Assembly (NCBI RefSeq): GCF_004369205.1
Contig: NZ_QFGA01000004.1
Span: forward strand, 248,001-312,000
Direction of reading: 5' to 3'
Source of the DNA: Pelotomaculum schinkii
Lineage (GTDB): Bacteria > Bacillota > Desulfotomaculia > Desulfotomaculales > Pelotomaculaceae
Length of the DNA: 64,000 nucleotides
Under the pieces are notes generated by a model. It did not search any database and was not told the origin of the DNA. It worked only from the letters and a program-made list of their open reading frames with translations. Shown here piece by piece: positions 22,610-27,401 of this stretch (the stretch's first letter is position 1; every line of letters begins with the position of its first letter). Both the position numbers and the translations under genes were made by a program.

Positions 22610-25300
22610 TCAGGGGTATGATTTTCGTTTTTTCATAAAAAGTATTACCAGCAGAACGAGAATGGCACATATAAGCAGTGGCGGCTCATCAAGCGTTACG
22701 GTGGGGATTTGTTCATTGTTGTTTAGAATTCTCTCCTGCAAATCCAGCAGTTCCTGTTCCTGCTCCGGTGTCTCAACCACAATGAATGCTGTCTGGGGTG
22801 TCAAGATTCTTGCCCTGAAGCCGGCTCGAATCAGTTCCAAAGGGTTCGGTTTCCCGTTCAACAAATATCTTTGCTGCGCCGCATCAAGAAGAATAGCGTC
22901 CTTATACCGGTTGCCTGTTAAAGTAATGCTGTCCGATTCCATATCGCCCAGCACTAATTCGCATGCATCATTGTCCGATACATAGATTCCATTGAAGTCA
23001 AGGACTGGCTCTACAATAGGGTTCTTTAATCTGCTTCCCGCCTTGTTGTCTTCATAAGAATATGGTGTTAAAGTCAGGTCGTGATTCAAAGCATAATAGA
23101 AAGGACTTTCAGGGAATCTGTCGGACAAAGGATAAATATTTTCAGGGAAAACAGCTCCGGGCATATTATCGGATACGGCAATTATAACTGGGAAACTTTT
23201 GCTGCTTTCTTTACTTAAAATCATTCTTACCGCCCTATAAAAATTGAACCCGCATTCGGTTTTAAATTTTGCCTTCTTCATATCCGCAAGAGAATGGGAT
23301 TCAACTCTATGGGAAGCAAAAATCACTTCAGCCCGGGTGATTTTATTGGCCTTTGCATATTCTTCAATTTGCTCAATATGCCATGCTATGTCGCTGTTTT
23401 TTGAGCAGTCAATAACAAAGTGGTATTCGGGTGTTCTTTCAACACGCTTCAAACCGGCTTTTTGCAAAGGCGAAAGCAGGACCGCTCCTTCAACAGCTGT
23501 TTCTTTTTGCGCCACGTCTCCGCCCAGTGAAATAATATTGTTGTCCAAATTAATATTTAATGGATGATTGTGAAGAATTTCAAAGCCTGTCTGTCTTACC
23601 TCGTGTTCGTTGAATGGAAAGACACTGAGTTCCAAAGTATTCCTGCCTGTATAGTACAGCAGGCCCGGATCGCGGCGTGTGTTTACAATTTTCCGGTAAA
23701 TGAACATGGCGGCCCGGCGGTCGGCAAGAATACCCTCTTTTCTTTCTCCGAGTACATCAAGGTAATAGTCGCTGATATATGCGCCTTCCGGCAGTTTGAA
23801 GGTAGTAACATACTCTCCATTTCCCTCTCCTGTAGGATTTTCCAGTGTCAAATCAACCCATGACCTGTACACTCCTGTTTCCTCAGAAAACTCTGTTTTG
23901 CTTTTCACAGCTGCAAGCCGTACCCGGTTATTTACCATATCCGAATTGGAAAGACCGGCGTCAATTAGACTGTGCCCCGAGTCAAAAAACAGATTTTCAA
24001 GTGCCAGGATATTGTGCTGTGATATGACCTTCCCATCCAGAACAAAATTTGTGTAAAAGGCTGATATTATGGGTGTGTTTCCAGGGGCATAACCAGTTAT
24101 ACCCCTTGTTAAATCATAGCTGCCCTTCACGTTTTTTAATGTTCTATGAAGGCGTGCCAAATCAATCGTTTTGGCAACCTCAACACTGTTATGATCCAAA
24201 TACTGCACGGCAGCTTCAAAATTATCCTTATCGCTCCAGAATGTAGATATCATGCAGACGGGCAGGGTGATGATCCCGGCACAAAAGACAGCTATTATGC
24301 GAGGCGTTCCCCATGCCTTTGGCAGACCGGCCCATTCCTTGATTATATGCCAACCCTGCCAGATTGCAGCGAAGGCGGGCGCCAAAATGAAAATTCCCAA
24401 TCCGTAAAAAACGAGCCCTACTGCTCCCATGGGGAGAATCGGCAGGAAGACGATGAAAAAATACAGTATATATGTATAACAAACCGCCTTCAGATAAAAC
24501 ACCAAGAGCCTGAGCTTTTGGTCCTTTACTGCAGGAAGCAGCATTAGGAATCCGTTTAACGCTGCAATAATATAGAAGGCAGGGCTTGAAAAATCGCCGA
24601 ACATGCCGACGGAATCAGCACTGGACCAAAGGCCCGCTTTGCCCTGATTAATTGCCAGACCTCCCAATGGCAAGAGCAGCGATACAAAAGTTGTAATCAT
24701 ATAATACCTTTTGGTGGAAGGGCTGTTGCATGCACAGTCAGGATTTTCTCGCTTCCAAACAAGCAGCATTTTCACTGACAGCAGTGTTATTGTATAAACG
24801 CCTGCTATGATAGAGATCATAAGTATGGCGTTTAAATTGATGCCGTTTATAATATTCATCATTATAAACCAGATAAATGGAACTGCAATTAATCCAGCAT
24901 AACCGGCTGTATCATTACTCTTTTCAGCTGATGTTGTGTTAAACGCTGTGCCGTATATGCCATACAAGACAGGGATCATGCATAATACGATAAACACCAG
25001 CCGCGGGCTGACAAAACCTGTTCTGTTAAATAAATCTTCATTGAACAGCAGCATACATGCTGTAAACAACGCATAAACAGTTGAAATTGCTGTGAATACC
25101 CTTGTGTCCGTGGAGGATTCCCTGCGTTTTATGAGGGCGTAAATTGAAAATATTCCCATTAACAGCAGAGTTACGGTGCCCGAGAGCGCTATTGATTCAA
25201 TATTTAACTCTCCGGGCCTAAAGGTAAGGTAACCTAACAGCATCAGCTGAGGCAGTGTCACAAACAATAATATGTAAACGGGTTTAGTAACTGCTTTCAT
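22610..25300 (-). CDS. MSEP-CTERM-like sorting-domain protein, partner of exosortase K
   Basis: The 896-residue protein starts with about ten membrane helices (residues 1-370). A large extracytoplasmic part follows with a VIT (inter-alpha-trypsin)-like domain (about 465-590: SWVDLTLENPTGEGNGEYVT, LPEGAYISDYYL, RRDPGLLYYTGRN). A C-terminal tail has a short LDEPP motif, one hydrophobic helix (LLICAILVLLVILFM) and basic KKRKSYP. That tripartite tail is the exosortase signal; in the named family the motif is MSEP, here read LDEP. The gene overlaps xrtK and is its only visible substrate. ATG 25300 follows GGAAGTGA; TTG 25315 is also possible. Confidence 0.8.
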   Translation of the reverse strand: MKAVTKPVYILLFVTLPQLMLLGYLTFRPGELNIESIALSGTVTLLLMGIFSIYALIKRRESSTDTRVFTAISTVYALFTACMLLFNEDLFNRTGFVSPRLVFIVLCMIPVLYGIYGTAFNTTSAEKSNDTAGYAGLIAVPFIWFIMMNIINGINLNAILMISIIAGVYTITLLSVKMLLVWKRENPDCACNSPSTKRYYMITTFVSLLLPLGGLAINQGKAGLWSSADSVGMFGDFSSPAFYIIAALNGFLMLLPAVKDQKLRLLVFYLKAVCYTYILYFFIVFLPILPMGAVGLVFYGLGIFILAPAFAAIWQGWHIIKEWAGLPKAWGTPRIIAVFCAGIITLPVCMISTFWSDKDNFEAAVQYLDHNSVEVAKTIDLARLHRTLKNVKGSYDLTRGITGYAPGNTPIISAFYTNFVLDGKVISQHNILALENLFFDSGHSLIDAGLSNSDMVNNRVRLAAVKSKTEFSEETGVYRSWVDLTLENPTGEGNGEYVTTFKLPEGAYISDYYLDVLGERKEGILADRRAAMFIYRKIVNTRRDPGLLYYTGRNTLELSVFPFNEHEVRQTGFEILHNHPLNINLDNNIISLGGDVAQKETAVEGAVLLSPLQKAGLKRVERTPEYHFVIDCSKNSDIAWHIEQIEEYAKANKITRAEVIFASHRVESHSLADMKKAKFKTECGFNFYRAVRMILSKESSKSFPVIIAVSDNMPGAVFPENIYPLSDRFPESPFYYALNHDLTLTPYSYEDNKAGSRLKNPIVEPVLDFNGIYVSDNDACELVLGDMESDSITLTGNRYKDAILLDAAQQRYLLNGKPNPLELIRAGFRARILTPQTAFIVVETPEQEQELLDLQERILNNNEQIPTVTLDEPPLLICAILVLLVILFMKKRKSYP

Positions 25301-25805
25301 TATCATCACTTCCAATTAATTGATTGACTGCTATATAGCTTGCCGCCAGAGCTGCAAAATAAAGAGAAATGCCTATACCTGAATGCAGGAGTGCAAATTT
25401 CTCGTGGGTTACAAACGGTATCGAACCAACAATTCTGATACAGCTGATTAAGACCCCGGCTGCAGCAGCTCCGACAAGACATGTTATAAACCATAGCGCC
25501 TTGTGAAAGCCGTTAAAATGCTTTGCGAACATACAGGCATTCATTAAAAACATCAAAACAATAAAGTGATAACCCATACATTCCCGACCAATGTTGAATG
25601 TACAATCAATAGATGAATATCCAATCCCGTTTGTGTACACCAGCGGAATGTTGTAAAAAATCTCTGCCGCTTTTGCGTGAGGATAAAGTAATATCTTTAA
25701 GACAGCATCCTGTGTGGTTTTAAACCCATATATCAAATACAGACCAACCAGGACAGTAAGAAAATAAAAAAGAATATTCTGTACTTTATCTGTCATTGCC
25801 GTCAT
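25284..25805 (-). CDS. xrtK: exosortase K
   Basis: The 173-residue membrane protein carries the exosortase triad: Cys76 in GRECMGYHF, Arg124 in SCIRIVGSIPF and His141 in LLHSGIGISLYF. It has about five helices, as expected for the short XrtK type. Exosortases cleave C-terminal PEP-like sorting tails at the membrane and hand the protein on to a surface anchor; XrtK is dedicated to MSEP-CTERM proteins. The downstream gene overlaps by 16-32 bases and encodes such a protein. The ATG at 25796 may be the true start (CGGAG 10 bases before). It lies in an operon with a DUF2975 protein and XRE regulator. Confidence 0.88.
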   Translation of the reverse strand: MTAMTDKVQNILFYFLTVLVGLYLIYGFKTTQDAVLKILLYPHAKAAEIFYNIPLVYTNGIGYSSIDCTFNIGRECMGYHFIVLMFLMNACMFAKHFNGFHKALWFITCLVGAAAAGVLISCIRIVGSIPFVTHEKFALLHSGIGISLYFAALAASYIAVNQLIGSDDNESSY

Positions 25806-26013
25806 GCTCCGTATCCATGTATTCCAGAATATCGCCCGGTTGACACTTTAATGCCTTGCAGATTTCTTCCAGTGTGGAAAATCGAATTGCCCTTGCTTTG
25901 TTGTTTTTTAGAATTGATAAATTTGCAGGAGTGATGTTTACCAGTTCCGCAAGCTCTATCAGCCCAATTTTTCTTTTTGCCATCATTACGTCCAGATTAA
26001 CGATAATCGGCAC
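25786..26013 (-). CDS. XRE-family (YozG-like) transcriptional regulator
   Basis: The 75-residue protein is a lone Cro/CI HTH: VNLDVMMAKRKIGLIELAEL, VNITPANLSILKNNKARAIR, then LEEICKALKCQPGDILEYMD. This short type is often paired with a DUF2975 membrane protein, as here (13-base gap). GTG 26013 has AAGGAG 9 bases upstream. It overlaps xrtK by about 20 bases. It is the best candidate to bind the three phased repeats upstream of the operon. Confidence 0.88.
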   Translation of the reverse strand: MPIIVNLDVMMAKRKIGLIELAELVNITPANLSILKNNKARAIRFSTLEEICKALKCQPGDILEYMDTEHDGNDR

Positions 26014-26026
26014 TGTTCATCACTCC

Positions 26027-26479
26027 TTACACCGTTAAGTCATTTTCTTCTTTATACTGTACCGCCTGTTTGAACACATCTGCCAGAACCAGCGAGAACA
26101 AGCCCGCGATAGCAAAGATAATAACAATGATGGCTGTTGCCAGTGTAAACCAGAACAAGCATTTTGTTATGTATAAAGCTGAAATGACAAAAGAGGCAGC
26201 TGCCATTTTCCGCAGAGCGTCGACATTTTTCATGGTAAACGGGTCGGTATGCAAAAGCGTTTGAAAAATACATCTCAGCGTCCATAAAATATAGAGCGCT
26301 GCGATGCCTGACAACATTAGTACAGCTGTTAATTGCAGGCGGATGCCTTCAGCTATAAGGGCATGTGGAATCAGCTTGTAAATAATTACCGGAACAGATG
26401 CGCAAACCAGAATACCGCTGTAAAACATAAAATCCATTAGTATCTTGGTAAGGTGGTGTAGAGTTTTTTTATTTTGCAT
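26027..26479 (-). CDS. DUF2975 membrane protein
   Basis: The 150-residue protein has four hydrophobic segments (about 13-33, 47-66, 92-112, 115-135), with the DUF2975 pattern TDPFTMKNVDALRKMAAASF between helices 2 and 3. DUF2975 proteins are co-encoded with small XRE regulators and are thought to work with them as a membrane sensor pair. The start has GGGAGGT. It is the first gene of the exosortase K operon. Confidence 0.87.
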   Translation of the reverse strand: MQNKKTLHHLTKILMDFMFYSGILVCASVPVIIYKLIPHALIAEGIRLQLTAVLMLSGIAALYILWTLRCIFQTLLHTDPFTMKNVDALRKMAAASFVISALYITKCLFWFTLATAIIVIIFAIAGLFSLVLADVFKQAVQYKEENDLTV

Positions 26480-26512: not shown

Positions 26513-26541
26513 ATTATAGCACGATGGATTTTGAAATACAA
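26513..26541 (-). promoter_or_regulatory. promoter of the exosortase K operon
   Basis: On the minus strand a TATAAT -10 (26518-26513) lies 17 bases after TTGTAT (26541-26536), about 35 bases before the DUF2975 start. The -35 lies inside the first operator-like repeat. Confidence 0.7.
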
Positions 26542-26584
26542 TATATTTTTATTGATAAACAATAAATTTACATTGAAATTCAAT
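26530..26584. promoter_or_regulatory. three operator-like 13-bp repeats, 21-bp period
   Basis: TTTGAAATACAAT (26530-26542), ATTGATAAACAAT (26551-26563) and ATTGAAATTCAAT (26572-26584) each fit ATTG-N5-CAAT and start exactly 21 bases apart. They cover the -35 region and upstream sequence of the exosortase K operon. Two helical turns between starts place all three on one DNA face, as for cooperative repressor binding. Confidence 0.72.
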
Positions 26585-26767
26585 ATATAATGCGGGTCGA
26601 GTCTAGCGGTATAATTAGCTGCTTAATGCAGTTACGTCCTACCCGCGTAGTGATTGCTTATCCTGTGATAAAATAAAAGAGAATGGAAAAAGGAGGGCAT
26701 GCATTATGGAGCAACAAACAAAACCCCTGGGAGAATAGCCGGCTTGTTGATAGCCTGGGTAGATGAA
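26585..26767 (+). other. spacer with aborted reading frame
   Basis: AAAAAGGAGGG at about 26690 is a fine ribosome-binding site followed by ATG 26706, but the frame closes after 10 codons (MEQQTKPLGE). It may be the start of a lost gene or a leader peptide. Nothing else is seen. Confidence 0.35.
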
Positions 26768-27052
26768 TCAACCATTTATGGAATATATGGCTAAGGATGC
26801 TAATAGATTAGGAATCCCAAATAGAAACAAATTTGTAGACCAACGCATACGCTGTCTAAAATCTTGCTCATCGGAATAATTTGCTCTAACCCTATCTCCG
26901 CTGACTAATGCTCCAGAAAAAATAGCAGCTAATACCATTGGCACAACCCCAACCATTAGCAATCCGTTAACGACCATATTGGGGTTATCAAGAAATAAAG
27001 AGACAACCAGGCCTGAAATTGCAATAACTAAACCAATAATAAATGAACGCAT
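26768..27052 (-). CDS. DUF5316-like small membrane protein
   Basis: The 94-residue protein has helices at about 3-22, 28-50 and 75-92, with the conserved polar stretch SGALVSGDRVRANYSDEQD between helices 2 and 3, as in DUF5316 proteins of Bacilli and Clostridia. Function is unknown. I choose ATG 27052 because AAAGGAG and AGGTG precede it; ATG 27097 has no ribosome-binding site. Confidence 0.75.
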   Translation of the reverse strand: MRSFIIGLVIAISGLVVSLFLDNPNMVVNGLLMVGVVPMVLAAIFSGALVSGDRVRANYSDEQDFRQRMRWSTNLFLFGIPNLLASLAIYSING

Positions 27053-27401
27053 AAAATACACCTGCTCCTTTGAATTTTTTATTTCCAATATATTCATGTT
27101 GATTGATCTGTAAGTATGATTTCATCTAGTAATAATTTCCATATAAAATCGTGTCCTCCTTTTTTTATTTCAGGAATAAAAAATATGCGCACAAATTGCT
27201 ACAACTATAGATAACCAACTGAAAACTAGACCTTCAATTTAACAATGTCCGGCGATACTTATAATAATAATCTCAAATAATTCGTCTAATGCGATTTTAC
27301 GGCGTCAGGTTGACACTGTCAAATGCGTGGGCTTCGTTGACGATCCAGGCATGGAAGATATATAATACGGGACGATAGGAATTTTGAAAAGGAGAATAGC
27401 T
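27053..27401. other. intergenic region
   Basis: No gene is seen. A 13-bp palindrome TTGACACTGTCAA lies at 27310-27322, about 80 bases before the next start, and could be an operator. AAAAGGAGA at the right end is the Shine-Dalgarno of the next gene. Confidence 0.4.

Follow-up and report, generated by a model that had tools for sequence, protein, structure and literature searches.

The question raised by this locus is whether the phased repeats that lie over the promoter of an exosortase operon in Pelotomaculum schinkii constitute an operator and, if so, which protein would fill it and with what effect. The window, i.e. the whole stretch of 64,000 nucleotides that was analysed, contains the operon on its minus strand, and we have mainly compared its promoter with those of relatives carrying the same gene pair.

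Operon, promoter and repeats in the window

The operator units, promoter elements and genes are listed below, with the bit scores of the units taken from the family matrix described in the next section.

26568..26588, minus strand: distal operator unit; core 26572-26584, ATTGAAATTCAAT; 12-14 bits
26547..26567, minus strand: central operator unit, the strong one; minus-strand palindrome ATTTATTGTTTATCAATAAAA; core 26551-26563; 24.8-26.3 bits
26526..26546, minus strand: proximal weak operator unit, over the -35; core 26530-26542, TTTGAAATACAAT; 6.5 bits
26536..26541, minus strand: -35 hexamer TTGTAT; starts 16 bp downstream from position 26557, the centre of the strong unit
26513..26521, minus strand: extended -10, TGC-TATAAT; spacer to the -35 of 17 bp
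26027..26479, minus strand: DUF2975 membrane protein, 150 aa; PF11188, 52.8 bits; four predicted helices; C-terminus KEENDLTV
25786..26013, minus strand: XRE regulator, the presumed binder, 75 aa; HTH_26, PF13443, 79.8 bits; supported by alignment and model
25284..25805, minus strand: exosortase K (XrtK); TIGR04287, 162.1 bits (cut-off 55); overlaps the XRE gene
22610..25315, minus strand: MSEP-CTERM sorting-domain VIT protein, the presumed XrtK substrate; TIGR04286, 1039.2 bits (cut-off 150); overlaps xrtK

Since the DUF2975 gene is followed by an adjacent HTH_26 XRE gene on the same strand, the two form a DUF2975-XRE (YoaS/YozG-type) pair; YoaS is the DUF2975 protein of Bacillus subtilis, a species which has a PF11188 match. 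The XrtK/MSEP-CTERM sorting system is also present, because both of its proteins score above the curated cut-offs. The overlaps between xre and xrtK (25786-25805, 20 bp) and between xrtK and the MSEP-CTERM gene (25284-25315, 32 bp) suggest translational coupling. Upstream of the operon, a gene for a small DUF5316 protein is found on the same strand (26768-27097), and a 10-codon ORF with a good ribosome-binding site, perhaps a gene remnant, on the plus strand (26706-26738). The -35 hexamer TTGTAT is poor, with three of six consensus bases, and this weakness is why a generic promoter scan of the window missed the operon promoter.

In an earlier note on this DNA, three 13-bp ATTG-N5-CAAT sites 21 bp apart were described. 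The positions and the spacing stand, since the cores start at 26530, 26551 and 26572 with a step of exactly 21 bp, but the three are not all exact copies: the sites at 26551 (ATTGATAAACAAT) and 26572 (ATTGAAATTCAAT) match exactly, while that at 26530 (TTTGAAATACAAT) has TTTG instead of ATTG and is one base off. The same note placed the first site over the -35, which is correct, because 26530-26542 spans TTGTAT (26541-26536 on the minus strand). A transcribed RNA hairpin was rejected because the units lie upstream of the -10.

In 64 kb the exact 13-bp motif has 2 matches versus 2.48 expected, and in its loose form 14 versus 11.8, both at chance level. The loose double site WTTGN5CAAW-N8-WTTGN5CAAW occurs only in the window array (as two overlapping pairs) in the whole 4.44-Mb genome, where its reversed control has 0 matches. 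The 21-bp phasing, unlike the 13-bp motif by itself, is thus confirmed to be beyond chance. A second genome of the same genus has almost the same array and promoter, and the sequence past the distal (third) unit is unrelated; two of the three differences in the cores fall at a position where the family motif takes A or G, and the third, a G-to-A change in the core of the distal unit, weakens that unit.

Putative operator units in DUF2975-XRE relatives

Relatives of the XRE (HTH_26)-DUF2975 pair were drawn from Bacillota, Bacteroidota and Legionella, combining XRE relatives from genome contigs with DUF2975 relatives from the order, and a matrix was learned on their upstream regions. It converged on a 21-bp palindrome, ATTTATYGWWWWWCRATAAAT, found upstream of XRE in 61 of 72 loci, and several loci without a match in the scanned stretch have a strong palindrome farther upstream. 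The relatives therefore give a 21-bp palindrome, in place of the 13 bp claimed before, as the true unit. The ranking of the units could also be refined: the middle unit at 26551 is the strong one, and the unit over the -35 is weak.

The earlier note had proposed a search for the same phasing upstream of other DUF2975-XRE operons, and it is present there, overwhelmingly with the same 21-bp step. The 72-locus set has 26 secondary sites, of which 22 are spaced by 21 bp and two by 42 bp. A dereplicated set of 69 loci, each with a strong unit, has secondary units scoring more than 5 bits at -21 in 33 loci and at +21 in 21, while other non-zero offsets have few (-42 in 3 loci, elsewhere at most 2); the count expected at -21 from shuffled upstream flanks is 0.14, with a maximum of 2. 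Because the matrix that selected the 69 loci had been trained on most of these same loci, the strength seen for the central unit is to some extent built in, whereas the offsets of the flanking units are independent of the matrix, from whose building secondary sites were left out. At a threshold of 2 bits, both flanks carry a unit in 19 loci and at least one does in 52. The array is not obligatory, since in 8 of these 69 loci every flanking unit scores 0 bits or less. At -42 the base composition is that of the background, so that in most loci the array extends no farther than three units. The window locus has all these features, namely the 21-bp palindrome, unit steps of 21 bp and the -35 at +16.

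These data bear on two readings that require no binding protein. The first is that the array arose by chance or is an A/T-rich tandem repeat inherited in the lineage, as the chance-level count of the 13-bp motif in the window would allow. Since the phasing is unique in the genome and recurs in dissimilar promoters of several phyla, we regard this as hardly credible. The second is that the repeats are a promoter UP element or phased A-tracts rather than protein operators; the units do have a high A/T content and are located immediately upstream of the -35, but the mirror positions of the distal unit are conserved (59% G and 59% C in the 69 dereplicated loci), which is expected of neither, and this reading is very improbable.

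The register with the promoter is also fixed. Counting downstream from the centre of the strong unit, the -35 starts at +16 in 45 of 61 loci (50 of 69 in the dereplicated set), and in six of the 61 it is one 21-bp step nearer, inside the strong unit; among these six, L114 is from Bacteroidota and has a promoter of another type. The half-site ATTG and the -35 hexamer share the same TTG. In loci with TTG at the -35, the C of the second half-site is kept in 34 of 51, versus 0-4 at neighbouring spacer positions; since this C is kept although it lies in the promoter spacer, the -35 unit is apparently selected as an operator too. Between -35 quality and operator quality in the proximal unit there is a weak, non-significant trade-off (rho -0.23, p 0.10). 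The promoters come close to consensus, with 11 or 12 of the 12 hexamer bases in 33 of 65 and a TGn in 48. Comparison of the loci thus establishes the array, its promoter register and its link to the XRE family at the sequence level.

In five Bacteroidota loci (L074, L092, L093, L109 and L114), the distance from the strong unit to the start of the downstream -7 element TAnnTTTG is constant. By the Bacteroidota promoter consensus, the -33 TTG would fall inside the strong unit, and these loci appear to have the same operator-promoter overlap with a different promoter type. Six Bacteroidales loci (L068, L070, L077, L085, L111 and L115) have a different array layout, in which two palindromes 64-66 bp apart flank a TAnnTTTG match and are located well upstream of XRE.

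DUF2975, XRE, XrtK and MSEP-CTERM genes occur together in the window and in L004, L005/L029 (a cassette split over contigs), L031, L035, L125 and L126, belonging to several families, while tblastn found XrtK or MSEP in the fetched flank of 0 of 80 other XRE loci. All six cassette promoters with enough sequence have three abutting units in the same register and the -10 at the same distance, with units of varying quality (the proximal unit of L031 scores below 0). Another locus (L127, G299) has an exosortase K of 92.9 bits and a distant MSEP-CTERM protein, but neither XRE nor DUF2975 was found there.

The strict palindrome is present in one copy in the genomes of four of five relatives and in two copies in the fifth, and in all five, one strict copy is by its coordinates the operator of the own operon. 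In the window genome, the sole zero-mismatch match with an A/T core is the central unit, 26547..26567. The second strict site, in a Flavobacterium genome (L135), has no XRE or DUF2975 nearby, scores 16 bits and runs over an ORF end, and is probably a chance match; a search for a regulon in the own genome with a two-mismatch pattern gave 652 matches versus 774 for the reversed control, i.e. noise. A single-copy site points to a dedicated autoregulator. That the array is instead bound by another regulator, e.g. a global one, with XRE uninvolved, is conceivable in that A/T-rich palindromes are common targets and XRE binding is itself deduced. We consider this improbable, because the site was found by tracking the XRE gene across phyla and because a global regulator would have many sites, whereas there is one site per genome, at the own operon, in four of the five relatives and (with the A/T core) in the window genome. 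The earlier proposal of a cooperative operator with XRE as its binder is accordingly well supported by comparison, through the phased homologous promoters and the tie of the array to the XRE gene.

Proposed autoregulation and the part of DUF2975

We propose, with a probability of roughly 0.7, that the array is a three-unit XRE operator, the cooperative filling of which represses its own operon, and that DUF2975 probably relieves this repression through its tail. For binding, cooperativity, repression and the part of DUF2975, we infer the following course. An XRE dimer would first take the strong central palindrome (centre about -51) and assist the binding of more dimers to the adjoining distal unit and to the weak proximal unit, the latter (centre about -30) covering the -35 hexamer. 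Because 21 bp is two helical turns, all units lie on one face of the DNA. The filled array would exclude RNA polymerase, so that XRE would repress its own DUF2975-XRE-xrtK-MSEP-CTERM operon. The signal for DUF2975 is probably a condition of the membrane or envelope, and the protein may capture or release XRE through its conserved C-terminal tail, which would set the amount of exosortase K and its substrate.

The proteins are consistent with these roles. The aligned XRE relatives share 68-97% identity, in keeping with a single conserved operator. The XRE model (mean pLDDT 80.6) has a helical core with a terminal strand on either side, and its top match in two structural comparisons is CylR2 (2xiu; Foldseek rank 1; VIA Z 8.7 over 64 residues, rmsd 2.3); since other XRE folds are within about 1 Z unit, this match identifies the general XRE fold. 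The DUF2975 model has four long helices, and its fold search gave only low-scoring helical membrane proteins and bundles. The C-terminus of DUF2975 is its most conserved stretch, EENDLTV/I being nearly invariant across phyla while the rest falls to about 20% identity. When the tail (26027-26053, minus strand) was compared with the upstream genes of L036-L115, 74 of 80 products ended in T-V or T-I, mostly as D-L-T-V/I, and KEENDLTV in the window fits this. The positively charged N-terminus and the four helices predict a cytosolic tail, which makes it a candidate contact for XRE and likely a docking peptide.

The main rival to autorepression is a switch that activates and then represses, as in the C-proteins of restriction-modification systems: the strong upstream unit would recruit RNA polymerase, and XRE at high level would fill the weak -35 unit and repress. 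The strong unit does lie beside, not on, the -35 in most loci, with the weak unit on the -35 and dimers adjacent, the same site order as OL/OR of C.Esp1396I (PMC4041747). C-proteins rank among the nearest structural matches of the XRE model, and the -35 of the window is weak (3/6), so some help to polymerase is possible there. Most family promoters, however, have a near-consensus -35 and -10 plus TGn, for which activation should be needless, and in about six loci the strong unit is itself on the -35. In the geometry of CRP-type activators, moreover, a unit centred at -51 lies on the wrong side of the helix. On balance, this switch is unlikely, though clearly less so than the other alternatives. 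Near-consensus promoters are as would be expected where a repressor, not an activator, is needed, and the simplest reading is that XRE, filling the array cooperatively, represses its own operon, as the -35 would be blocked and the promoters are near consensus.

A broader idea, which we offer tentatively and would give somewhat less than even odds, is that the pair is a membrane-to-DNA module found across phyla and unlike classical two-component systems, in which the tail EEND-L-T-V/I docks onto the XRE dimer and pulls it off the three-unit operator overlapping the promoter, and that this module took over an exosortase sorting operon in some Bacillota. Having a defined operator with a fixed promoter register and usually one copy per genome makes the DUF2975-XRE pair a directly testable autoregulated module and lets its regulon be predicted in any genome. 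It is also a first handle on the control of the exosortase sorting system in Bacillota.

Comparison with known systems

Essentially no literature on DUF2975-XRE pairs, which occur in several phyla, was found in the library searched, and no description of the operator was found in the literature covered, which largely excludes subscription journals. Nothing was found there either on VanU as an autorepressor, on exosortases together with MSEP-CTERM, or on tandem operators. An Xre/YoaS-like pair, with an XRE protein beside a "membrane protein, likely permease", was listed by Makarova et al. in 2009 (PMC2701414). The gene neighbourhood is the same as here, and the passage on the pair gives no operator, promoter layout or mechanism. 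As far as searched, the three-unit operator array is therefore unreported, while the pairing was already known.

A small XRE regulator is shared also with VanU of vanG operons: there is a weak NF000090 match (E 0.0041), and 3tyr is in the fold list. The match is nevertheless 17 bits against a cut-off of 150, and no van genes were found beside XRE.

In C.Esp1396I, OL recruits sigma and OR then represses, the distal site having high affinity and the proximal low (PMC4041747). As in C-proteins, the present system has a small, putatively autoregulatory XRE-fold protein and adjacent operators, strong distal (24.8 bits) and weak proximal (6.5 bits) on the -35, a likeness that refers to sequence scores. 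It differs from C-proteins in having no restriction-modification genes, the operon partners being DUF2975, XrtK and MSEP-CTERM, and from C.Esp1396I in its recognition sequence, its 21-bp abutting units, often three, and its near-consensus promoters.

A close parallel is CylR1/CylR2 of Enterococcus faecalis, in which a small membrane protein is paired with a very small repressor of XRE fold (PMC3709268). Here, too, a tiny XRE-fold protein is paired with a small membrane protein, and CylR2 is the top match of the XRE model, although the sequence match is not significant (E 0.23). By analogy with what has been proposed for CylR1/CylR2, DUF2975 would probably relieve XRE repression. CylR1 is described as having three predicted helices whereas DUF2975 is modelled with four, and cylR1/R2 run divergently to their target operon, whereas in the present case the regulator and its presumed targets, xrtK included, lie in one operon.
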